In this document: positions 972-35,084 of the stretch, piece after piece
How positions within the stretch are numbered: position 1 is the first letter of the stretch
Layout of the letters: each line of letters opens with the position of its first letter
DNA from: a virus
Length of the DNA stretch: 35,084 nt
Virus record (IMG/VR): IMGVR_UViG_3300019776_000110
Span: 1-35,084 of that record
Strand: one strand, 5' to 3'
Notes under the pieces: model-generated
Seen by the model: the letters and a program-made list of their open reading frames with translations, nothing else
What the model was told of the DNA's origin: nothing
The model's database searches: none
Translations under genes and position numbers: made by a program

Positions 972-1005
972 ACCCTAAGTAATTAAGGTTTTCTTAATTA
1001 TAGCA
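972..1005 (-). promoter_or_regulatory. Promoter with 5' stem-loop for the neck gene
   Basis: On the minus strand a perfect TATAAT (1002-997) is preceded by TG at the extended -10 position (1005-1004); no clear -35 is visible. Seven bases further on, 989-972 form ACCTTAATTACTTAGGGT, a 7-bp stem (one G-U pair) with a TTAC loop placed at the expected transcript start. It sits just downstream of the terminator at 1021-1042, so it would restart transcription of the neck and tail genes. Confidence 0.65.
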
Positions 1006-4961: not shown

Positions 4962-5348
4962 TTATCGGTATCTAAGTTTTGAATAAGTCGCTTCTGCGAT
5001 TGCTCGCTTTCTTGCTTCTTGGGATTGTTTGCTAATTTCTTGGGTTTTTTGTTGAGTTGGTACGTCATTACCAAGCTCTACCATGCCATGTCTTTTTAGG
5101 TGGTCACGATGCTTACTACGGCTTTCGATCCATGAGCCATCAATTTGGGAAATATAACCGCCAATGTCAGAAGAAACCATGTGAGATTTACGGATATTTT
5201 CTTTTTGTTTTTCTTCCCATGAAGCTTCGGCAGCTTCTTTGCCTATTGTTGGCGTCCACCAGTCAATAAAGCGCTCTTTATCTGACATTTGAGCCACATC
5301 AGTTTGTTCATATTCACTTTTGCATAAAGGGCAAATATGTTTAGCCAT
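4962..5348 (-). CDS. Small phage protein with N-terminal CxxC motif
   Basis: 128 residues, function unknown. The N-terminus starts MAKHICPLCKSEYEQ, a possible metal-binding knuckle, with His residues later (KHRDHLKRHGM) that could complete a site. The C-terminal third is charged and helical. It sits between the glycosyltransferase-like gene and scaffold in the head operon. ATG at 5348 with GGGAG upstream; its start is one base after the glycosyltransferase stop codon. Confidence 0.55.
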   Translation of the reverse strand: MAKHICPLCKSEYEQTDVAQMSDKERFIDWWTPTIGKEAAEASWEEKQKENIRKSHMVSSDIGGYISQIDGSWIESRSKHRDHLKRHGMVELGNDVPTQQKTQEISKQSQEARKRAIAEATYSKLRYR

Positions 5349-6257
5349 CTACATTCTCCCAAGTAATTCAGGTATCTTATTGTATTCGTTTGGTCTTAAA
5401 CAGACAACGCTGTCATACCATCTAGCGTTTTTCCATCGCCAACAAACAAACGATTCCTCTGGCAATAAGACAATACATTTAACGCCTAAAGCACCAGCTA
5501 AATGTGCCGTTCCTGTGTCTACAGTTACAACACCTTTCATGGCTTTCATGTGTGATGCTGTTTTAGACCAGTCTTTTTTCCATCCATCATCAGGTAATGG
5601 GTAAAACATGGCATCTGTTTCGGGATTTAAGGAATATGCGTCATCACCGACTAATTCGTTCATGTGTTCCGCAGAAATAGACTTAATCCAATGCAAAGTA
5701 CCCTTAGATGCGCTCCAATTTACCCCTATTCTTTTAGGAATATTGCTAGGAATTGCTTCAAAATAGCCCTCTGAACCTACAATTTTCTTTTTATTGATAG
5801 GAAATAGTTGTTTTACATAGGGCATTGAGCAATCTATGTAATAAGGTAGTGACATTGAGCCTATCCAATAGTCACATTCATTGGCTGGGCCTTCTTCTGT
5901 CATATTGGTTAGCTGATCAATGCACTCCATCTGCCCTAAAAGTGGAATAAGTGCTGGAACGGCTAAAACAACTAGCTTTTTAGCGCCCATAACCTTTAAA
6001 GCTGGTAAAAATCGAGCATATTGGAATATATCCCCGAATCCTTGCTCCATTTGAACGACAATAGTCTTGTCAATTAGCGATTCACCAGACCAAGGGCGTG
6101 GCCACATTGGCTCTCTTTTATAAGGGATAACCTGATTGGCTAAGATAGCTGGATGCCATCTGTATTCAAATAGCCTAAATCCAGCTTGGTATCTGCCGTT
6201 ATGTAAATGGTCGTATGCCTTCTTGTATTCGGCATGAGGGTCTACATTAGTAATAAT
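5349..6257 (-). CDS. TPR-type glycosyltransferase-like protein, apparent non-AUG start
   Basis: A GT-B (heptosyltransferase/GT9-like) fold is suggested by MEQGFGDIFQYARFLPALK near the N-terminus of the core and TVDTGTAHLAGALGVKCIVL near the C-terminus, the donor-site region. Such proteins occur in phage structural operons and may glycosylate a virion protein. The first ATG (6107) lies inside the domain: the frame upstream encodes the usual N-terminal part (LHNGRYQAGFRLFEYRWHP), and is open back to stops just before 6265. No ATG, GTG or TTG exists there; two ATT codons at 6257 and 6254 follow GAGGA by 6 and 9 bases, so an AUU start is proposed (302 or 301 residues). It overlaps the upstream gene end. 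Confidence 0.65.
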   Translation of the reverse strand: MITNVDPHAEYKKAYDHLHNGRYQAGFRLFEYRWHPAILANQVIPYKREPMWPRPWSGESLIDKTIVVQMEQGFGDIFQYARFLPALKVMGAKKLVVLAVPALIPLLGQMECIDQLTNMTEEGPANECDYWIGSMSLPYYIDCSMPYVKQLFPINKKKIVGSEGYFEAIPSNIPKRIGVNWSASKGTLHWIKSISAEHMNELVGDDAYSLNPETDAMFYPLPDDGWKKDWSKTASHMKAMKGVVTVDTGTAHLAGALGVKCIVLLPEESFVCWRWKNARWYDSVVCLRPNEYNKIPELLGRM

Positions 6258-12101: not shown

Positions 12102-12448
12102 TGATATATATGCCTTATAGGTTTAGTTTCATCACCAACTACCTCAGTACGGGCTAGTTTTGGCACATGATATTCAGCTATTTTCTGAACTAAATCGATA
12201 GCATCTTTAGGGCTTGGGGGAACTCGATATAAAGGCACATCATCTTTGTAAATAATTTCGCCTTTTTGATTTGTCAATGGAACGCCATAAGCGACCATAG
12301 AAAGCCATTCGTCTAGTTTGTGGGCATTACCATCAACTAGGTGTGCAAAAGCTTCTCTAGCTATCTTTGTAGACTTATTAACAGCACCTTTGGTGCGACC
12401 TACATTCAAGTTAGGGTGTTCGGTATTTTTCGCTTGTTTAGCGGACAT
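12089..12448 (-). CDS. terS: Probable terminase small subunit
   Basis: 119 residues. The N-terminus has a basic GRTKGAVNKSTKIAREAF segment, common at the start of phage small terminases and small DNA-binding proteins of the same position, followed by helical segments. It directly precedes and overlaps the large subunit, and a promoter with a 5' hairpin lies just upstream, so it begins the packaging transcript. Identity rests on this motif and on order. ATG at 12448; TAGGT is a modest ribosome-binding site within the hairpin. Confidence 0.7.
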   Translation of the reverse strand: MSAKQAKNTEHPNLNVGRTKGAVNKSTKIAREAFAHLVDGNAHKLDEWLSMVAYGVPLTNQKGEIIYKDDVPLYRVPPSPKDAIDLVQKIAEYHVPKLARTEVVGDETKPIRHIYQWKK

Positions 12449-12457
12449 ACTATGTTT

Positions 12458-12509
12458 ACCTAAGTGGTTAAGTAAGTTTAAGTATAACTAAATTGTTGCT
12501 TGCTTACAA
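12458..12509 (-). promoter_or_regulatory. Promoter with 5' stem-loop for the packaging operon
   Basis: Minus strand: TTGTAA (12509-12504), 17-bp spacer, TATACT (12486-12481), seven bases, then ACTTAACCACTTAGGT (12473-12458), a 6-bp stem with one G-U pair and a CCAC loop. The stem-loop falls at the expected 5' end of the transcript that begins with the terminase small subunit. Confidence 0.65.
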
Positions 12510-13242: not shown

Positions 13243-13275
13243 TCACTTCCCAGTAAGGGTGATTTAATTATATCA
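13243..13275 (-). promoter_or_regulatory. Extended -10 promoter with 5' stem-loop
   Basis: Minus strand: TGATATAAT (13275-13267) is an extended -10 with perfect TATAAT; no good -35. Four bases later 13262-13243 can fold as TCAC/GTGA around CC/GG. The promoter overlaps the end of the upstream zinc-ribbon gene and would drive the genes at 13195-12511. Confidence 0.6.
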
Positions 13276-14591: not shown

Positions 14592-14755
14592 AATTCTAAT
14601 AATCCTTCTTCTAATCGTTTACGGGCTTTTGATCCACGTTTTTGTTCTGCAAGTTCAAGGTATTTTCTGCGTTCAGGTAATATTAAACTTGCTATCCAAC
14701 GTATTTCGCACTCATGCCGATATTGGTCTGAATTTTTATCATCAAATAAGTCCAT
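14573..14755 (-). CDS. Small protein, possibly DUF7696-like
   Basis: 60 residues. The pattern RHECEIRWIA, RRKYLELAEQKRGSKARKRL resembles a small family seen in phages and provisionally matched to DUF7696; the function is unknown. It starts 14 bases inside the end of the methyltransferase gene. Confidence 0.55.
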   Translation of the reverse strand: MDLFDDKNSDQYRHECEIRWIASLILPERRKYLELAEQKRGSKARKRLEEGLLELWKLKK

Positions 14756-15986
14756 CTTCTACCATTTGAATTCGATTGCCTATCCATTTCATTACAGGAA
14801 CTGCCATTGAGTTACCTAATGCTTTGTATCTTGGGCCATCAGGGCAGTTTTCTTTGATATTAGTATAGTTATCAGGAAATCCTTGCAGTCTTTCACATTC
14901 AACAGGAGTTAATCTGCGAACTGCCATGCTTTGAATAACACCACCTACATGATCAATGCAACCTGTTCCACGAACTGTTTGAGTTGTTTTATTGTTTGTA
15001 GTTCCATTGTAAGTATCAACTCCAACTGCTATTTGTTGATCCTGTAAAGTTGATAAAGTAAATGCTTTTTCATCCTGACCAAGATAACCCTTACCGCCAC
15101 CTTCGCAACCCCCTCTGACTTTAAAAGCATGGGCTAATGGCACATTATTTCCACCTGTTCCCCATCTAGCAGTTACAGTAGGGCTAATATCAACAGGTTT
15201 TATTCTGCTATCCGTTCCATGATTTTCATAAACTTGGGCCACCATTTTTGCCATATCTGGATTGCAGTCATCAGCACTAATGCCTTTGTAATCTCTAGCA
15301 GTTAATGGACCACTAATTTTAGTGGCAATCATATTGAATCCATTAGTTTTACTGTAGTCATTATTTGTTGTTTGGAAACCGTTAGCAATGCTTGGTACAA
15401 AGGTGGTGGTAGTTGTTTCCCCCTTTTTTCTGCTCTTTTTAGAATCCCCTGACAAGCTTTCGAACTCAAATAATACTTTTGCGGTAGGTTTCCAATCTCC
15501 AAGATGTCCGACAACAAACACTCTTCTTCTGCGCTGTGCGACTCCGAAGTGTTGAGCATCCAACACTCTGTAGCTGAACCCATACCCGAGTTCAACCAAC
15601 GCCCCGAGGAAGGATCCAAAATCCCGTCCTTTGCCTGAACTGAGGACACCCGGCACGTTTTCCCAAACGAACCACTTGGGTCTAAACTTGTCAAGAATTC
15701 CACAATAGGTGAGTGCAAGATTTCCCCTTGGGTCATCAAGTCCTTTTCTAAGACCTGCAACGCTAAATGATTGACAGGGAGTTCCTCCGACCAAAAGTCC
15801 AATTGTTCCAATTTCCCACTCCTTATATTTAGTCATATCGCCCATATTTGGGACTAATGGATAATGATGTTTTAATACTTCACTAGGAAATTTCTCAATT
15901 TCACTATAAGCAGCAGCTTCCCAACCCATGTCATGCCAAGCAACTGTCGCAGCTTCTATTCCAGAGCATACTGAAAGGTATCTCAT
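14742..15986 (-). CDS. dcm: C5-cytosine DNA methyltransferase (Dcm type)
   Basis: 414 residues from ATG 15986. All key blocks are present: AdoMet-binding YLSVCSGIEAATVAW (3-17), catalytic GGTPCQSFSVAG with Cys71, WENVPGV (108-114, the Glu-Asn-Val block), QRRRRVFVVG (151-160), then a long variable target-recognition region, and at the end RRLTPVECERLQGFPD and GNSMAVPVMKWIGNRI. No cognate restriction enzyme is nearby, so it is an orphan that probably protects phage DNA. The start overlaps the upstream gene as ATGA; the frame runs 11 codons further up, without need. The recognition site cannot be read from sequence. Confidence 0.93.
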   Translation of the reverse strand: MRYLSVCSGIEAATVAWHDMGWEAAAYSEIEKFPSEVLKHHYPLVPNMGDMTKYKEWEIGTIGLLVGGTPCQSFSVAGLRKGLDDPRGNLALTYCGILDKFRPKWFVWENVPGVLSSGKGRDFGSFLGALVELGYGFSYRVLDAQHFGVAQRRRRVFVVGHLGDWKPTAKVLFEFESLSGDSKKSRKKGETTTTTFVPSIANGFQTTNNDYSKTNGFNMIATKISGPLTARDYKGISADDCNPDMAKMVAQVYENHGTDSRIKPVDISPTVTARWGTGGNNVPLAHAFKVRGGCEGGGKGYLGQDEKAFTLSTLQDQQIAVGVDTYNGTTNNKTTQTVRGTGCIDHVGGVIQSMAVRRLTPVECERLQGFPDNYTNIKENCPDGPRYKALGNSMAVPVMKWIGNRIQMVEDGLI

Positions 15987-16351
15987 GCCATCGCTTTCTT
16001 TGCCATAACTAGCAAACATTTTTCTTTTAATTGATGAAAAGTAAGACCTACACTATGAACTCCAAGTTCGGCAGCTTTAGCAACGATGCCAGCTTCTGTA
16101 GCCATCCATGATTTGTCTTCTTTGACTTTAACAGTCATGTCTAGCTCATCTTCCCAACGACCTTGATTGATCCATGTGGTTGCATGAGGTATGTATTCTG
16201 TTTCGGTGTTTTTTAGTTTCCAGTATTGGATATGGTTTGGTAATGCTTCTAAAGCATCTGCCTGTTTTAGCTTAGATAAGCGGTTCCACGCTTTTTCTGC
16301 CATTTTTTTACTTACTTTTCTAGGGTATAACTTCCAAAATTCATTAAACAT
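15983..16351 (-). CDS. Replication-protein C-terminal-like domain protein
   Basis: 122 residues. FWKLYPRKVSKKMAEKAWNR and YIPHATTWINQGRWEDEL are the hallmark of the C-terminal domain found in many phage replication initiators and DnaT-like proteins, where it binds DNA or partners. Here it stands alone without the usual N-terminal winged-helix. It may load host replication machinery, since the phage has no polymerase or helicase. It is the first gene of its operon, just after a promoter with a 5' hairpin. Confidence 0.75.
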   Translation of the reverse strand: MFNEFWKLYPRKVSKKMAEKAWNRLSKLKQADALEALPNHIQYWKLKNTETEYIPHATTWINQGRWEDELDMTVKVKEDKSWMATEAGIVAKAAELGVHSVGLTFHQLKEKCLLVMAKKAMA

Positions 16352-16359
16352 ATTTGCTC

Positions 16360-16410
16360 ACTTAAGTAGTTAAGTCTAGGTAGTTTAATTAAGCAATCTT
16401 AATAATGCAA
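16360..16410 (-). promoter_or_regulatory. Promoter with 5' stem-loop for the replication-methylation operon
   Basis: Minus strand: TTGCAT (16410-16405), 17-bp spacer, TAAACT (16387-16382), six bases, then ACTTAACTACTTAAGT (16375-16360), a perfect 6-bp inverted repeat with a CTAC loop, then GAG, five bases and the ATG of the first gene. Same layout as the two plus-strand early promoters. Confidence 0.7.
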
Positions 16411-16652
16411 GTCTTTTTTATTTATTCTTATATATATATTTTTCCAATTCCTTTTTGGTGAACGAACCTAGCCCTTTCCTAGATTCGCCTTAATCTGTTT
16501 CCTTTTTGGAGCCACAGAACCCGTCAGTCTTGCGTTGAATAGGCACTAACTTCGCCACCTATATTTGAGCTGTTACATCAACTTTCCCCCAGTTGCTCTT
16601 GTATCTCAAATGCTGGTGTCGGTTCCCGCCCATTTAAGACCAAGCAGAAAAG
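16376..16652. other. Non-coding stretch with no supported gene
   Basis: No convincing gene on either strand. Apart from the promoter at its left edge, the minus strand has a 72-codon frame from ATG 16633 to TAA 16418 that is broken by TAG (16561-16559) and TAA (16492-16490), without a clear ribosome-binding site; it could be a decayed gene or chance. The short alternating TATATATATA tract at 16430-16440 is also present. Confidence 0.5.
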
Positions 16653-16740
16653 AAAAAACCCCTTAAGGTTGTTCTAAGGTGAAGTTGCTTTATAAAAGAC
16701 CAGCCAGCCTTTATAAAACACTCAGAACAACCCTAAAGGG
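16653..16740 (-). terminator. Rho-independent terminator downstream of the repressor
   Basis: A 17-bp stem with a 48-nt loop, itself able to form an inner hairpin from two TTTTATAAAG copies, then GGGG and U6 at 16658-16653. It separates the repressor transcript from the replication-methylation operon. Confidence 0.75.
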
Positions 16741-16783
16741 TCTAGGCTGGTAACTTTTGCACAACAGACTTCACTCTGCTTGC
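16653..16783 (-). ncRNA. Candidate structured small RNA or attenuator
   Basis: Bounded by a promoter-like TATACT upstream and U6 downstream. Terminator form: CCCTTTAGGGTTGTTCT (16740-16724) pairs over 17 bp, two of them G-U, with AGAACAACCTTAAGGGG (16675-16659), followed by six U. Alternative form: GTGAAGT (16774-16768) with ACTTCAC (16685-16679), AAAAG with CTTTT, and CCAGCC (16750-16745) with GGCTGG (16705-16700). The two crossed forms exclude each other unless a pseudoknot forms. No open frame of note. It lies downstream of the repressor gene, so it could attenuate repressor-strand transcription or be a free RNA. Confidence 0.6.
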
Positions 16784-16787
16784 TTAA

Positions 16788-16815
16788 AGTATACCAACTT
16801 TTTAAATTACTGCAA
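16788..16815 (-). promoter_or_regulatory. Promoter-like sequence for the candidate small RNA
   Basis: Minus strand: TTGCAG (16815-16810), 16-bp spacer, then TATACT (16793-16788), with TGG before it as an extended -10. It overlaps the 3' end of the repressor gene. The predicted start is near 16781. Confidence 0.5.
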
Positions 16816-17034
16816 CTCAGGCCAAATAAATTTCCATGTTTTAGGGAACATAGCTTTTCTAGTCATCAAGCCGTGTGATTGCTTTTCAAGCTCTGCACCT
16901 AAAAACACTAGCTTGTCATAAGGAATACCATTCGATTTCCATTGACTAACTGCTGGTAGGCTAACTTCGCACATTTTGGCTACTTTAGTAACACCACCAA
17001 GCAAGAGAATAATTTGTTCGTCATTTAGCTTCAT
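16807..17034 (-). CDS. Cro/YdaS-like transcriptional repressor
   Basis: 75 residues. A helix-turn-helix with GGVTKVAKMCEVSLPAVSQW (recognition helix around SLPAVSQWKSNGIP) matches the small P22 Cro / YdaS type. It is the only gene reading left from the early control region and faces the early plus-strand promoter, the position of a Cro-like regulator. No CI-type partner or integrase was found, so lysogeny is unsupported. ATG at 17034 was preferred because the family normally begins here; a TTG 12 codons upstream is possible. There is no good ribosome-binding site. Confidence 0.8.
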   Translation of the reverse strand: MKLNDEQIILLLGGVTKVAKMCEVSLPAVSQWKSNGIPYDKLVFLGAELEKQSHGLMTRKAMFPKTWKFIWPELQ

Positions 17035-17054
17035 GTTAGAAATCTTAACAAAAT

Positions 17055-17083
17055 TAAATAAATTTATCAATACCTATTGACAA
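17055..17083 (-). promoter_or_regulatory. Probable repressor promoter
   Basis: Minus strand: TTGTCA (17083-17078), 17-bp spacer, TATTTA (17060-17055). The -35 overlaps the -35 of the divergent early promoter almost completely. The -10 is weak. A short inverted repeat, TGTTA/TAACA (17050-17034), then runs into the ATG. Confidence 0.4.
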
Positions 17084-17127
17084 TGTAATTTAGATGGCTT
17101 AATCTGTCATTACTGCAATGTTGCAGT
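17077..17127 (+). promoter_or_regulatory. Early promoter with 5' stem-loop or operator
   Basis: TTGACA (17077-17082), 17-bp spacer, TAATCT (17100-17105), six bases, then ACTGCAATGTTGCAGT (17112-17127), a perfect 7-bp inverted repeat, followed by GAG. The repeat lies at the expected +1, so it could act as a repressor site or as a 5' mRNA hairpin. Drives the early plus-strand operon. Confidence 0.75.
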
Positions 17128-17143
17128 GAGAATAGGAGTAAAT

Positions 17144-17353
17144 ATGAACCGAGAAGAATTTGAAGGAATCTTAGAGCGTGAAGCTCGTCTAGACCAAGCC
17201 TTAGAACGCATGGAAGCTGGCGATTTTTTGTCAGATGACGATGTATCTATTATCCGTTGGGCTTGCGGAAAAACCAAACACACACCACAAAAAGAACTTA
17301 ATGCCTTGTTTCAAGACTGGGCTACTGTATTTCGTATTAACGGTGCTATTTAA
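17144..17353 (+). CDS. First early gene, unknown function
   Basis: 69 residues, acidic and helical (MNREEFEGILEREARLDQAL), no domain recognised. ATG at 17144 has TAGGAG eight bases upstream and follows the early promoter, so it is the first gene expressed. First-position early genes are often host-takeover or anti-defence proteins, which is only inference here. Confidence 0.7.
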   Translation: MNREEFEGILEREARLDQALERMEAGDFLSDDDVSIIRWACGKTKHTPQKELNALFQDWATVFRINGAI

Positions 17354-17364
17354 AGGAGTAACAA

Positions 17365-18000
17365 ATGATTATCAGAGAAATTAAGAACGAATCCACTTTT
17401 AAACTACCGCCATCAGGATCACATCTTGGGCGCTTGTATCGAGTTATTGACTTAGGTACACAAAAGATTGAATGGCAAGGTGCTATCAAAATGCAACGCA
17501 AAGTTATGTTTAGCTTTGAGTTACATGGTGAGGACAATGATGGCCAGCCATTAACAACTAATGACGGTAAGCCGTTAATCATCTCTAAACGCTACACAAT
17601 GAGCCTTGGTGAGCAATCTACGCTACGCAAAGACCTTGAGTCATGGTCTGGCCGTAAATTGACCGCAGACGAGCTATTGGGTTTTGATGTCAGCAAATTA
17701 TTAGGCAGGTTTGCTATGTGTAACGTCACTCATAACGATAGAGATGGCAAAACATACGCTAACTTGTCAGGTCTTAGCCAAGTGCCGGCAGCTATTAAGA
17801 AATTGCCTGAACCAGTTGGTGTAAACCCTTTATTTATTCTTAGCCTTGATGAGTTCGATCAATCTAAGTTTGACAGTCTTTCAGATGGACTTAAGGATAT
17901 TATTAAAAAGTCCGCTGAATGGCGTGGCACTAACGGTGATGACATTGAAAAAGTCAATTCCGCTATTGCTGATATTGATAACGATAGTATTCCTTTTTAG
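17365..18000 (+). CDS. SSB-like single-stranded DNA-binding protein
   Basis: 211 residues. The N-terminal 150 residues are beta-rich with conserved-looking blocks (ESTFKLPPSGSHLGRLYRVI, KLLGRFAMCNVTH); the tail is acidic and ends DIDNDSIPF, the same type of tip (acidic plus IPF) by which bacterial SSB recruits partners. It lies in the early block with exonuclease. This suggests a phage SSB or DUF669-like replication accessory protein; the OB-fold is not proved from sequence alone. Start ATG 17365 has AAGGAG upstream. Confidence 0.7.
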   Translation: MIIREIKNESTFKLPPSGSHLGRLYRVIDLGTQKIEWQGAIKMQRKVMFSFELHGEDNDGQPLTTNDGKPLIISKRYTMSLGEQSTLRKDLESWSGRKLTADELLGFDVSKLLGRFAMCNVTHNDRDGKTYANLSGLSQVPAAIKKLPEPVGVNPLFILSLDEFDQSKFDSLSDGLKDIIKKSAEWRGTNGDDIEKVNSAIADIDNDSIPF

Positions 18001-18125
18001 TTAATTACGGGGCAAAAGCGGATGCTGGCTAGTAAAGGGTGAGATTCCCACGAGATGACCACTAAGGTTTTTTTAACACCAAAACAGTCCTCTAGCAGTG
18101 CAGCGAGTAGCCCCACCTTATATAT
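18001..18125 (+). other. Intergenic segment with possible RNA structure
   Basis: No gene. The RNA can pair GGGGC (18009-18013) with GCCCC (18110-18114), and GCTG-GCTAG (18024-18032) with CTAGC (18092-18096) and CAGC (18101-18104), enclosing a GGG/CCC hairpin (18037-18049). An alternative stem puts CTAGT (18029-18033) against ACTAAG (18061-18066), followed by seven U (18068-18074), like a weak terminator. Either would lie between the SSB-like gene and the small-gene cluster. Confidence 0.4.
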
Positions 18126-18263
18126 ATGAAATTTTGCGTATCTTGTAATAGAAGTAAACCAGCTAACGGATTTAAATTAGTTACGACTGGTAAGGTCAGA
18201 AGATGGAAGTGTGCGGATTGCCTTAACAGAACATCCACTACTTTTTATGGAAAACAAAAATGA
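18126..18263 (+). CDS. Small zinc-ribbon protein
   Basis: 45 residues with CVSC (4-7) and CADC (29-32) knuckles and basic residues between, a compact zinc-ribbon; function unknown. It is the first gene after the structured gap and ends in an ATGA overlap with the next gene, which supports translation. It resembles, in layout, the zinc protein at 13273-13434. Confidence 0.6.
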   Translation: MKFCVSCNRSKPANGFKLVTTGKVRRWKCADCLNRTSTTFYGKQK

Positions 18264-18490
18264 AACCTGTTGCATGGACTGATGATTTGTGGAACATTTT
18301 TCTAAATGACGAATACTGTATGTTAGATGACGGCATGAAAAAAGATATGATTCCACTCTACACCGCACCAAGAGAGTTAAGTGGAAGCGAAATTAATAAT
18401 CTTTGGTCTAAATATGGATGGGGCAGTGTTGATATAGAAGAATTACATACTTTTGTTCAAGAAATACTAAAAAAAGCGAGTGAGAAATGA
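18260..18490 (+). CDS. Small accessory protein, junction-cassette family, copy 1
   Basis: 76 residues. The start MKPVAWTDDLWNIF and the middle IPLYTAPRELSGSEI follow a layout common in small early phage proteins (Eae-like). The C-terminus ILKKASEK is encoded in a 25-bp junction repeat shared with several neighbours. Function unknown. Confidence 0.65.
   Translation: MKPVAWTDDLWNIFLNDEYCMLDDGMKKDMIPLYTAPRELSGSEINNLWSKYGWGSVDIEELHTFVQEILKKASEK
18466..18490 (+). repeat. 25-bp gene-junction repeat, copy 1
   Basis: ACTAAAAAAAGCGAGTGAGA followed by AATGA. It encodes the end of one gene (KKASEK), a weak ribosome-binding site and the overlapping stop/start ATGA of the next. Further copies lie at 18729, 18845, 19002 and 19158. 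Confidence 0.8.
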
Positions 18491-18753
18491 AAGAAGAAGC
18501 ATTGAAAGTTGCGAATAGGTTACAGGATGTAATAATTTATTTAAGCGAAATGGACAATGTGCCAACTGAAATAACAGACAGAATATTGCAAGCGGGTTTG
18601 ACCATTTGTTTATTAGCTACTTCACCAAGAGAGTTAAGCATGGAAGAAATTGAAGATTGTATGCCTGATGGTGCTACTCCTGATTTTGTTCCTCATAATA
18701 AATGGTTTAAAGAATTCGCCAATAACATACTAAAGAAAGCGAGTGGAAAATGA
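18487..18753 (+). CDS. Small accessory protein, junction-cassette family, copy 2
   Basis: 88 residues. SPRELSMEEI and the end ILKKASGK match the preceding protein (APRELSGSEI, ILKKASEK), with 16 identical bases (CACCAAGAGAGTTAAG at 18366 and 18623), so the two C-terminal halves are probably paralogous. The N-terminus differs. Function unknown. Confidence 0.65.
   Translation: MKEEALKVANRLQDVIIYLSEMDNVPTEITDRILQAGLTICLLATSPRELSMEEIEDCMPDGATPDFVPHNKWFKEFANNILKKASGK
18729..18753 (+). repeat. 25-bp gene-junction repeat, copy 2
   Basis: ACTAAAGAAAGCGAGTGGAA followed by AATGA; one base differs from the commonest form in GTGGAA. Confidence 0.75.
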
Positions 18754-18869
18754 AAATCGTTAATTTAATTGGTGCTACTTACCAAGTTATTGATGAAGAA
18801 GGTGATGTTATTTTTCAAGGTTCTTATGCTGATTGTTTTGCAATACTAAAGAAAGCGAGTGAGAAATGA
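18750..18869 (+). CDS. Very small accessory protein
   Basis: 39 residues: a short beta-type segment (IGATYQVIDEEGDVIFQG) joined to the common C-terminus ILKKASEK. ATGA overlaps both neighbours. Function unknown. Confidence 0.55.
   Translation: MKIVNLIGATYQVIDEEGDVIFQGSYADCFAILKKASEK
18845..18869 (+). repeat. 25-bp gene-junction repeat, copy 3
   Basis: ACTAAAGAAAGCGAGTGAGA followed by AATGA; the form from which the other copies differ least. Confidence 0.8.
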
Positions 18870-19006
18870 TTAATTATTTTAAAGAATTATTAGCAACATT
18901 AAAAAGCATTGATTCAAGTTTAAAAAAACTTGCAAGCACTACAACAACAGCAAGAGATGGTTATTCTAAATGTATAAATACAATTCAAAAATTTAGTAAT
19001 TACTAA
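18866..19006 (+). CDS. Very small accessory protein
   Basis: 46 residues, helical and Ser/Thr/Lys-rich (MINYFKELLATLKSIDSS), ending FSNY. Here the reading frame meets TAA inside the junction repeat, so it lacks the shared C-terminus. Function unknown. Confidence 0.5.
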   Translation: MINYFKELLATLKSIDSSLKKLASTTTTARDGYSKCINTIQKFSNY

Positions 19007-19026
19007 AGAAAGCGGGAGAGAAATGA
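19002..19026 (+). repeat. 25-bp gene-junction repeat, copy 4
   Basis: ACTAAAGAAAGCGGGAGAGA followed by AATGA. It is read in another frame, lying after the upstream stop, and serves only as leader for the next gene. GGGAGAG gives a better ribosome-binding site than the other copies. Confidence 0.75.
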
Positions 19027-19178
19027 CTTATATATCAAAGTGCAAACATGGTAAATATTTAGATATGTGTCGTATATGTTTTCCATTGCCTGAGCCATCT
19101 GAAGCCATAAAAAAATTTGCTGAAGAAATGACCAAAGTATATGTTGAAGAAATGAATAAGAAAGCGAGTGAGAAATGA
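19023..19178 (+). CDS. Very small protein with CxHG and CxxC motifs
   Basis: 51 residues. CKHG (7-10) and CRIC (16-19) could bind one zinc; the rest is helical and ends MNKKASEK from the junction repeat. ATGA overlaps the DpdA-like gene. Function unknown. Confidence 0.55.
   Translation: MTYISKCKHGKYLDMCRICFPLPEPSEAIKKFAEEMTKVYVEEMNKKASEK
19158..19178 (+). repeat. Gene-junction repeat, copy 5 (partial)
   Basis: Last 21 bases of the repeat (TAAGAAAGCGAGTGAGAAAT then GA), at the start of the DpdA-like gene. Confidence 0.7.
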
Positions 19179-20053
19179 CTATTGAAGAATACTTTAAGCT
19201 TCATGCGCCACAAACTTATCAAGCTTGGTTAGTTTATAAAAAAGAACATCAATCATGCCCACCTTGTCATGGTGATTGCAATCAAGGTAGGAATTGCCCA
19301 CTTAGAAAGAATGAAATGATTCATTATCATGGATTACCAATAACACCAGCTACAGTAGCTAATTATGCTGTGCAAGCTGGCCATGCTTTTGTTTCTTATG
19401 CTCATCCTGATCAAATAGGAACTGCTATAGAAATATGTCAATCATTTGCAATAGATAATGGAGCTTTTTCAGCATGGAAATCAGGAAAACCAATTACAGA
19501 TTGGACAAATTTTTATGATTGGGCTTTAGAACTTAAAAAAGTACCTTCTTGTGATTTTGCAGTAATCCCAGATGTCATTGATGGAACAGAATCAGATAAT
19601 GATGCTTTGCTTGAAGATTGCCCATTTCCTAAATGGTTTGGATCTCCTGTATGGCATATGCACGAATCTATGGAAAGATTAGAAAGATTGGCTAATAACT
19701 ATGTCAGGATTTGTATTGGTAGTTCTGGTGAATATGCAACTGTAGGTACAAATGCTTGGTGGTCAAGAATGGCAGAAGCTATGAGAATAGTTTGTGATGA
19801 CAAAGGAAGACCAATTTGTAAATTGCATGGATTAAGAATGTTAGACCCAGCAATATTTACAAAGTTTCCATTTAGTTCTACTGATAGCACCAATATTGGT
19901 AGAAATGTAGGAATTGATAGCAAATGGAGAAATGGCAATTACCCAGCTCCAACAAAAGAATCAAGAGCGCAAATTATGAGAATAAGAATTGAATCCCATA
20001 ATGCACCTTCTGTATGGAATTTTATGCAAATTGAACAAAAGGAATTATTTTGA
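19175..20053 (+). CDS. dpdA: DpdA-like 7-deazaguanine DNA transglycosylase
   Basis: 292 residues, resembling the TGT-related DpdA family that exchanges guanine for preQ0-type bases in DNA. FAIDNGAFSAW (91-101) matches the DSGGFQ/DSGAF-type motif with D94; AVIPDVIDG (129-137), RICIGSSGE (178-186) and KLHGLRML (216-223) fit the barrel core; SSTDST (234-239) places D237 where TGTs have the nucleophilic Asp. The first 45 residues add a Cys cluster, CPPCHGDCNQGRNCP, not expected in the core. queD follows with a stop/start overlap, strong support for the pathway. Start at ATG 19175 overlaps the preceding gene; a shorter form from Met48 is possible. Family assignment is by motif, not by a search. 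Confidence 0.75.
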   Translation: MTIEEYFKLHAPQTYQAWLVYKKEHQSCPPCHGDCNQGRNCPLRKNEMIHYHGLPITPATVANYAVQAGHAFVSYAHPDQIGTAIEICQSFAIDNGAFSAWKSGKPITDWTNFYDWALELKKVPSCDFAVIPDVIDGTESDNDALLEDCPFPKWFGSPVWHMHESMERLERLANNYVRICIGSSGEYATVGTNAWWSRMAEAMRIVCDDKGRPICKLHGLRMLDPAIFTKFPFSSTDSTNIGRNVGIDSKWRNGNYPAPTKESRAQIMRIRIESHNAPSVWNFMQIEQKELF

Positions 20054-20436
20054 AACTAACTCAAACATTTGTATTTGAAGCAGCACACACATTAAAAGGT
20101 AGGTCTATAAATGTCCTAGACAAATTAAATTCTGAGAATATTCATGGGCATACTTATTATGCAAGCATTTCTTATGAAGGAGATGTTAATAAAGATGGCA
20201 TGGTTAAAGATTTTGGACATATTAAATGGGCTGTTGATGTCATCATAAGAGAGCTTGATCACAAATTTTTAGACAATATAGAAGATTTGGGAAGACCAAC
20301 AATGGAAAATCTTTGTTTGTTTATAGCTAAAAGATTAGAAAAAAGTGATTCTAAATTGTGCGAAGTTACTGTTGAAAGAAAAGCAACTGGCGATAAATGC
20401 ACTTATGAATTAAAAAAGGAAAAAAATGATAATTAA
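20050..20436 (+). CDS. queD: QueD-like 6-carboxytetrahydropterin synthase
   Basis: 128 residues. QueD makes 6-carboxy-tetrahydropterin for preQ0, the base inserted by DpdA. Zinc ligands H13 (FEAAHTL) and H32, H34 (IHGHTYY) are present, as are the LDHKFL Asp-His pair, GRPTMENL and the late VERKATGDKCTY with Glu. The Cys that normally lies four residues before HGH is Ser28 here. FolE, QueE and QueC are absent, so precursors must come from the host. The start is TTG 20050 with AAGGA upstream and a TTGA overlap with dpdA. Confidence 0.85.
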   Translation: MKLTQTFVFEAAHTLKGRSINVLDKLNSENIHGHTYYASISYEGDVNKDGMVKDFGHIKWAVDVIIRELDHKFLDNIEDLGRPTMENLCLFIAKRLEKSDSKLCEVTVERKATGDKCTYELKKEKNDN

Positions 20437-21175
20437 ACAAAAAAATTCAGAGAGTTCACATTGGTACACAAAAACTGGTGAATCAGCCTACCAAGTTGAA
20501 GCTAAAAATGGTGAGATGCGAGCTACTACCCTTAGAGATGCTCGTAAGCTTGATTTAGTTCCTAGTGTAACCACTATCTTGGGTGTTGCAGCTAAACCAG
20601 CGCTTAATACATGGTTACAAACTCAGGTTTTATTGTCAGCTTTGACATTGCCCAGAGAACCTAACGAACCTGAAAAAGATTGGTTAGAGCGAGTAATGGC
20701 TGATTCTAAGGTTCAGGGTAAACAAGCTGCTGAACGTGGGACTGCTATTCATAGCGTTATTGAAAGCTATTTTGAGCAACAATCACTAAGAGAATGGCCA
20801 CAATATGTTAAGAACGTAGAGAAAGCCCTTTTTGACACGTTTGGAAGCCAACTGTGGAACTCTGAAAAGTCTTTTGCCCATGAGTTAGGGTACGGGGGGA
20901 AAATCGATTTAAGCGCTGATGGCGTGGTTGTAGATTACAAAACAAAAGAAAGCCCCTTAGAAAAGGTAGAACCTTACCATGAGCATATTCTACAACTAGC
21001 TGCTTATAGGCATGGTTTAAATATGCCAAATGCTCGCTGTGCTATTGTTTTTGTAAATGGCACGACCAATGAAGTAAAACTTTGCGAGATACCAGAAGAA
21101 GAACTTAAAGATGGTTGGGAATGTTTTAAGCATTTATTGTCTTTCTACCAAATAAAAAACAAACTGTTGCGCTGA
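20426..21175 (+). CDS. PD-(D/E)XK exonuclease
   Basis: 249 residues. Motifs in order: GTAIH (105-109), GGKIDL with D161, VVVDYKTK with D170 and K172, and HILQLAAYRHG (187-197), the RecB/Cas4-type nuclease core. With the SSB-like protein it probably resects ends for recombination or degrades host DNA. It has no Cas1/Cas2 neighbour and no four-Cys cluster, so it is not a CRISPR Cas4. ATG 20426 has AAGGA upstream and overlaps queD by 11 bases. Confidence 0.85.
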   Translation: MIIKQKNSESSHWYTKTGESAYQVEAKNGEMRATTLRDARKLDLVPSVTTILGVAAKPALNTWLQTQVLLSALTLPREPNEPEKDWLERVMADSKVQGKQAAERGTAIHSVIESYFEQQSLREWPQYVKNVEKALFDTFGSQLWNSEKSFAHELGYGGKIDLSADGVVVDYKTKESPLEKVEPYHEHILQLAAYRHGLNMPNARCAIVFVNGTTNEVKLCEIPEEELKDGWECFKHLLSFYQIKNKLLR

Positions 21176-21176
21176 A

Positions 21177-21213
21177 GCAACACTAAGGGTATATCCCTAT
21201 AAATATTTGTTGC
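21177..21213 (+). terminator. Hairpin after the exonuclease gene, possible weak terminator
   Basis: GCAACA (21177-21182) pairs with TGTTGC (21208-21213) around an inner AGGG/CCCT hairpin; A+T-rich, no clean U-tract. It lies just before the second early promoter, whose -35 overlaps its right arm. Confidence 0.4.
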
Positions 21214-21259
21214 ATTAGTTATTAAGTTAGCTTAATATGTAGTTACTGCATCGGGCAGT
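21210..21259 (+). promoter_or_regulatory. Second early promoter with 5' stem-loop
   Basis: TTGCAT (21210-21215), 17-bp spacer, TAATAT (21233-21238), six bases, then ACTGCATCGGGCAGT (21245-21259), a 5-bp inverted repeat, then GAG. Layout and spacing match the promoter at 17077 exactly; the loop and spacers differ. Confidence 0.75.
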
Positions 21260-34544: not shown

Positions 34545-35030
34545 ATGGAAGAATGGAAAAATGTAGTTGGTTTTGAGGAATTGTATGAAGTTTCTAATCA
34601 TGGACAAATACGATCCAAAAAAACAAATAAAATTAAAAAGCCAACTTACAGCAAACAAGAAAAGCGACTTTATGTTGGATTGTGGAAAAACAATAAAATA
34701 AAAATTTGCAAGCCACATAGGCTTGTTCTTGAAGCTTTTATTGGTCAATGTCCGCAAGGAATGGAAGGCTGTCACAATGATGGAAATTCCATAAATAATC
34801 ATATTTCCAATCTTCGCTGGGATACTCCAAAAAACAATCATGCCGATAAAATTAAACATGGTACTACTAATCGTGGTGAGCGTTGCGGAACTGCAAAATT
34901 GACTCTTGAACAAGTTAGAGCAATTCGTAAAGACGATAGACTTCAGCGGATTATTGCAAAAGAATATCAAGTTCAACAAAGTCTTATTAGTCGCATTAAA
35001 AATGGCGTTAGATGGCAACATGATATTTAA
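34545..35030 (+). CDS. HNH homing endonuclease with NUMOD4 domain
   Basis: 161 residues. NUMOD4 part: EEWKNVVGFEELYEVSNHGQ; HNH core: HRLVLEAFIGQCPQGMEGCH followed by NDGNSINNHISNLRWDT; a C-terminal helix-turn-helix (AKLTLEQVRAIRKDDRLQRI) for specificity. It is inserted between the neck adaptor and the gp10-like gene. The gene crosses the contig end: bases 1-45 repeat its 3' part. Its stop overlaps the convergent neck gene stop. Confidence 0.9.
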   Translation: MEEWKNVVGFEELYEVSNHGQIRSKKTNKIKKPTYSKQEKRLYVGLWKNNKIKICKPHRLVLEAFIGQCPQGMEGCHNDGNSINNHISNLRWDTPKNNHADKIKHGTTNRGERCGTAKLTLEQVRAIRKDDRLQRIIAKEYQVQQSLISRIKNGVRWQHDI

Positions 35031-35084
35031 CTGCCATACGAAGTGTCAGGAATATTAGCCCAAGAGATAAGCACTTCGCTTGGA
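34986..35084. repeat. Terminal direct repeat, right copy (circular overlap)
   Basis: Exact copy of bases 1-99. Positions 35027-35084 repeat the 3' end of the neck-protein gene annotated at 42-944. Treat one copy as redundant; the unique circle is 34,985 bp. Confidence 0.9.

Follow-up and report, generated by a model that had tools for sequence, protein, structure and literature searches.

The E. coli ompA mRNA begins with a 5'-terminal stem-loop that stabilises it. The papA mRNA and general work on 5' stem-loops are cited in PMC3997798, where a 5' hairpin is described that stabilises bla mRNA and impedes RppH; the 5'-tethered mode of RNase E requires the monophosphate that RppH makes, and 5' hairpins stabilise mRNAs that decay in this way (PMC3997798). 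RppH itself requires that two 5' nucleotides, and preferably three, be unpaired, and favours a purine at position 2 (PMC7144940). The phage leaders described here resemble those of ompA and papA in that the mRNA, here a predicted product of host RNA polymerase, opens with a stem-loop that leaves few or no 5' nucleotides unpaired. However, ompA and papA are single host genes of fixed sequence, whereas these phages carry several such promoters, each with a stem of its own, in which only the pairing is conserved and which is coupled to an operator of Cro type.

Other comparisons come from phages. The leaders of T7 class III promoters phi10 and phi17, which we folded for this analysis, form a hairpin flush from +1 of a phage transcript as well, although T7 relies on a polymerase of its own and on an invariable GGGAGA start, and only some of its late leaders fold in this way (those of phi6.5, phi9 and phi13 do not). 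Lambda boxB and HK022 put are likewise small hairpins in early phage transcripts. Finally, the P22 Cro/c2 operators have the consensus half-sites AAGNNNNCTT, the same as those of a dyad that we find beside the hairpins, and a nearby gene matches the P22_Cro Pfam family; here, in contrast, the operator lies within the promoter spacer, and the likeness concerns this element and not the hairpin. In the open-access literature searched we found no described equivalent of the hairpin leaders, which is weak evidence of novelty.

The stretch of DNA analysed (the window) is a phage contig of 35,084 bases from IMG/VR, labelled G000, which has genes for portal, terminase, major head and tail. Despite being recorded as "linear" it is probably a complete genome, since it carries a 99-base direct terminal repeat (1-99 and 34986-35084). 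The isolates closest to it by terminase share about 43-46% identity with it, HTVC010P-type pelagiphages, Methylophilales phage Venkman and Rhodoferax phage P26218 among them; hundreds of closer relatives exist in IMG/VR, and the phage belongs to a family of uncultured freshwater phages. GTDB genomes searched with the protein encoded at 17365-18000 yielded no related prophages. The sole Rfam match in the window at the gathering score is RF02932 (Betaproteobacteria-1 RNA; 16519-16640, minus strand, 96.6 bits), which lies elsewhere than the hairpins, themselves without a match. This phage-borne sRNA recurs in two relatives, L083 (9569-9690; 99.4 bits) and L143 (3363-3484; 86.8 bits), stands immediately upstream of a hairpin promoter in all three phages, and hints at a betaproteobacterial host. 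A 6-pyruvoyl tetrahydropterin synthase (QueD-like) gene at 20050-20436 adjoins a PD-(D/E)XK nuclease gene, a neighbourhood that possibly points to deazaguanine DNA modification.

Promoters and hairpins in the window and its relatives

A sequence-only reading of the window had proposed that four promoters, at 17077, 21210, 16410 and 12509, share a stem-loop at a fixed distance. Their architecture is borne out: a -35, a 17-bp spacer and a -10 are followed 6 or 7 bases on by a hairpin (D, E, A and B in Table 1), and in A, D and E the hairpin is followed by GAG, as that reading had also stated. Hairpin A has an identical copy at the same gene in L083. Hairpin D shares its loop and inner stem with ACCGCAATGTTGCGGTGA of relatives and is followed by GAG, AGGAG and an ATG at 17144. 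Promoter B lies upstream of the ORF that precedes the terminase gene, and its hairpin ends a few bases 5' of ATG. Some stems are predicted to be weak (A, -2.2 kcal/mol; B, -4.2 kcal/mol). No T-run follows the hairpins, and we rejected them as intrinsic terminators for that reason.

Two further sites had been put forward as related. The one at 1002 (promoter C) has the expected geometry (TATAAT, 7 nt, hairpin), but its sequence is close to that of A and B (TTAA-NYAC-TTA), and when the leader is folded as a whole the bases of the short hairpin, a candidate, pair with downstream bases instead. The one at 13272 (minus strand) we rejected, because its imperfect 24-nt stem begins just 2 nt after the -10; it is possibly a chance inverted repeat. 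Position 5384 (minus strand), where TACAAT and 6 nt precede CCTGAATTACTTGGG upstream of an ORF at 4962-5348, is a possible further late-type hairpin promoter.

Table 1. Promoters, dyads, hairpins and neighbouring genes in the window. Promoters, operators and hairpins are predicted.
Feature	Position	Strand	Details
Promoter D	17077-17105	+	-35 TTGACA 17077-17082; 17-bp spacer; -10 TAATCT 17100-17105
Spacer operator dyad of D	17088-17103	+	ATTTAGATGGCTTAAT; imperfect
5'-terminal hairpin D	17112-17127	+	ACUGCA-AUGU-UGCAGU; 6 nt after -10
P22-Cro/YdaS-like DNA-binding protein	16807-17070	-	Divergent from promoter D; Pfam PF14549, E 3.1e-7
Promoter E	21210-21238	+	-35 TTGCAT at 21210; 17-bp spacer; -10 TAATAT 21233-21238
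Spacer dyad of E	21221-21236	+	ATTAAGTTAGCTTAAT; perfect
5'-terminal hairpin E	21245-21259	+	ACUGC-AUCGG-GCAGU, then GAG; 6 nt after -10
Promoter A	16382-16410	-	-35 TTGCAT 16410-16405; 17-bp spacer; -10 TAAACT 16387-16382
Spacer dyad of A	16388-16403	-	ATTAAGATTGCTTAAT; perfect
5'-terminal hairpin A	16360-16375	-	ACUUAA-CUAC-UUAAGU, then GAG; 6 nt after -10
ORF under promoter A	15983-16351	-	No Pfam match
Cytosine methyltransferase gene	14742-16019		After ORF 15983-16351
Late-type promoter B	12481-12509	-	-35 TTGTAA 12509-12504; 17 bp; -10 TATACT 12486-12481
Late-type hairpin B	12456-12475	-	UUACUUAA-CCAC-UUAGGUAA; 8 bp including one G-U; taken as 12473-12458, it stands 7 nt after -10
Late-type promoter C	972-1002	-	-10 TATAAT 1002-997; weak -35
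Candidate hairpin C	989-972	-	ACCTTAATTACTTAGGGT / ACCUUAAUUACUUAGGGU; 7 nt after -10

The spacer between -35 and -10 holds a further dyad, ATTAAG-NNNN-CTTAAT, which the sequence-only reading had not noticed. It is perfect in A and E (ATTAAGNNNNCTTAAT), has one mismatch in D and is absent from B; in a second clade of relatives it takes the form CTAAAG-NNNN-CTTTAG.

Is the hairpin more frequent at this position than expected? In the window alone, 44 loose promoter matches gave 3 hairpins at offset 6, 2 at offset 7 and 0-3 at other offsets, a small excess, barely beyond chance. A strict scan of 133 related loci, which required a -10 close to consensus and then a perfect dyad of 6 bp or more, was flat, without enrichment, because many real stems are 5 bp long and the -10 itself varies (TAAATT, TAATAT, TAAACT). 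Both results are what would be seen if the hairpins were chance inverted repeats near AT-rich promoter-like sequence. The picture is different when promoters are picked independently of the hairpin. From IMG/VR we collected matches to -35, operator and -10 together, or to -35 and operator only, ignoring the downstream sequence and reading it afterwards; this gave 166 distinct leaders, some from unrelated phages that the loose pattern also picked up. Watson-Crick stems of 5 bp stood at offset 6 in 46 of these leaders and at offset 7 in 31, versus 0.8 and 0.7 in shuffled leaders, with counts near expectation outside offsets 5-8; many of the sequences are related, so that hairpin counts are not independent events. 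In the second clade the hairpin is present at 43 of 44 distinct operator-defined promoters. It is only in this independent collection that the signal is overwhelming, and for the operator-bearing class it refutes the chance explanation, which we now find scarcely credible. The isolated terminase relatives (HTVC010P, Venkman and Rhodoferax phage P26218) show no hairpin enrichment at offset 6 or 7, so within the wider terminase family the feature was not observed.

An RNA structure conserved at the predicted transcript start

Transcription usually starts at a purine preceded by a pyrimidine. The first base of the stem is A, 6 bases after the -10 in 80 of 93 cases and 7 bases in the other 13, and the base before it is a pyrimidine in all 93 (86 T, 7 C), which fits the stem's A being the predicted +1. 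AC at the start of the hairpin and GUGA at its end are nearly invariant (GA follows the hairpin in 83/93) while the inner pairs vary; another leader among the relatives reads ACGGCAACGGTGCCGTGA. Operator-bearing promoters in L214, L234, L249 and L270 have a different start (CATGCCC...GGGTCTTTT) in place of AC...GUGA and possibly form longer hairpins, a third leader type.

A dyad spanning +1 might instead be a DNA operator for one or more repressors: this is a common operator position, and within the window hairpins D and E are alike, as are A, B and C. To leave pairs 3 and 4 free, hairpins of 14-16 nt were picked by AC...GUG alone. The 88 pairs at these positions in 44 distinct hairpins comprise 76 Watson-Crick pairs, 12 G-U, no A-C and no other mismatch, whereas the same pattern elsewhere in the same contigs gives about 27% Watson-Crick. 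Because a DNA dyad would yield G-T and A-C equally, the pattern points to RNA; the 12 G-U cells fall into fewer independent groups (we estimate 6-8), so that this evidence is strong rather than astronomical. Pair types are diverse (GC, UA, UG and CG at position 3; GC, GU, UA, AU and CG at position 4; CG, UA, AU and GC at position 5). In alignments of the relatives' leaders, which also took in the window's own sites, covariation reached 0.684 versus 0.188 after shuffling and 0.802 versus 0.152, far beyond shuffles and slid controls. Leaders with similar downstream sequence differ by 139 two-sided and 49 one-sided changes that keep a pair and by none that breaks one, in comparisons that are not independent of each other. 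Base pairing itself is thus under selection in the RNA.

The stems also differ within a single phage. At least two different hairpins occur in each of 48 loci whose spacer operators are of one type (overlapping pieces of the same contig are among these loci), and no recognition sequence is shared at +1 among the two or three stems of a contig. L084, for example, has hairpins ACGGCAATGTGTCGT, ACTCAATAACGAGT and ACTCCATTGGGGAGT, all with TTAAG-type dyads; L154 likewise has several hairpins, and in L083, the closest relative at the gene under promoter A, promoters with a common spacer dyad are followed downstream by different hairpins. With 12 G-U against no A-C, differing stems in one phage and a separate operator of constant type in the spacer, we reject the +1 dyad as a DNA operator, a reading already largely refuted and very improbable. 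What the sequence-only reading had suspected, that the 5' end forms a conserved RNA hairpin and is not a single operator, is upheld by the covariation, the G-U pairs without A-C, the pyrimidine-A start and the differing hairpins per phage: the RNA structure at the predicted start is conserved, its sequence changing while pairing is kept.

Spacer operators and late-class leaders

Where, then, might a repressor bind? The type of the spacer dyad is constant per phage and varies with the recognition helix of the Cro-like protein, which is mostly SVPAVSMW in TTAAG-type phages and mostly VQAVCQW in CTAAAG-type phages, with some exceptions; for this reason the spacer dyad, and not the hairpin, is the likely repressor site. 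The correlation also follows phylogeny and could arise from phylogeny alone. From sequence we infer that the P22-Cro/YdaS-like protein is a candidate binder of these sites, and the dyad in the promoter spacer is likely the phage's P22-Cro-like operator.

Upstream of packaging genes the relatives have a different leader, in which AANYACTT follows the -10 after 10-16 nt, usually as a short hairpin reaching the start codon. Of the pairs adjoining it on the outer side, 38/45 and 37/45 are Watson-Crick or G-U, versus about one third in controls, with 17 G-U and 2 A-C; RNAalifold supports four pairs only, one of them with two-sided changes. The late-class hairpin is real but weaker than the early one and different from it. 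The earlier claim that early and late transcripts share the hairpin holds in so far as both carry one, but the late form (12509, 1002) is another and weaker element. In the window (12446-12475) and in relatives the AANYACTT hairpin often covers the Shine-Dalgarno sequence and reaches AUG. As the stem can cover this sequence, the late hairpin may have another role, perhaps the control of late translation.

Possible functions of the hairpin

We favour, with a probability of about 0.6, a model in which the flush +1 hairpin blocks RppH and 5'-end-dependent decay by RNase E, alongside a separate Cro-like operator in the spacer. Transcripts of the regulated promoters would begin at +1 with a hairpin of 14-16 nt (5'-AC, 2-4 further pairs, a loop of 4-6, GU-3', then GA); the leader after it would be rich in A, free of structure and provided with a Shine-Dalgarno sequence. 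With 0 unpaired 5' nucleotides and C at position 2, RppH would act poorly; the 5'-end-dependent mode of RNase E would then act poorly too, and phage mRNA would be longer-lived, while the ribosome site stays open beside the hairpin and the spacer operator, with its presumed Cro-like partner, handles transcriptional control. Folding leaves the ribosome site unpaired in the D and E leaders. Among the functions that the sequence-only reading had considered (protection, control of initiation, hiding from host decay) protection seems to fit best. Against the model, many E. coli mRNAs decay without RppH (PMC3997798), and some stems, such as those of A and B, are weak. Moreover, the invariant AC...GUGA frame exceeds the needs of stem protection: the model accounts for the C at +2 by inference only, and not for the trailing GA.

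This surplus conservation is what would be expected if the hairpin instead served a phage or host factor (for antitermination, or a regulator) as its binding site on the nascent transcript, in the way of lambda boxB or HK022 put, with AC...GUGA being recognised. The near-invariant ends around varying inner pairs and the boxB-like size of the 15-nt hairpins speak for such a site. Yet loops and inner stems differ even among promoters of one phage, unlike nutL and nutR; the early leaders of a phage share no boxB- or put-type loop or stem, and neither a paired boxA nor a two-hairpin unit, with a second stem-loop as in put, is seen. We regard this alternative as unlikely, if not lightly dismissed. 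A broader version, in which AC...GUGA is an RNA element bound at the 5' end of every regulated transcript so that operator and hairpin form one promoter cassette, is a doubtful proposition; if true, it would mean control at both the DNA and the RNA level, a new phage RNA-control system.

The hairpin might also insulate or enhance translation by keeping the leader off the ribosome site and setting a defined short leader, in keeping with the A-rich, unpaired sequence and AAGGAG-type sites 3' of the hairpin. But such a role needs neither a stem exactly at +1 nor C at +2, and the stem of late leaders borders on AUG or takes it in, which makes it a rather improbable account.

As for protection of the 5' end, the mRNAs known to carry stabilising hairpins of this kind are few so far. 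In an abundant group of uncultured phages, the sequences suggest that a flush 5' end resistant to RppH has been selected for, in each phage at several promoters of the host-polymerase type. Whether phages protect their own mRNA from 5'-end-dependent decay thereby becomes a testable question, for which the family supplies dozens of short natural leader variants.
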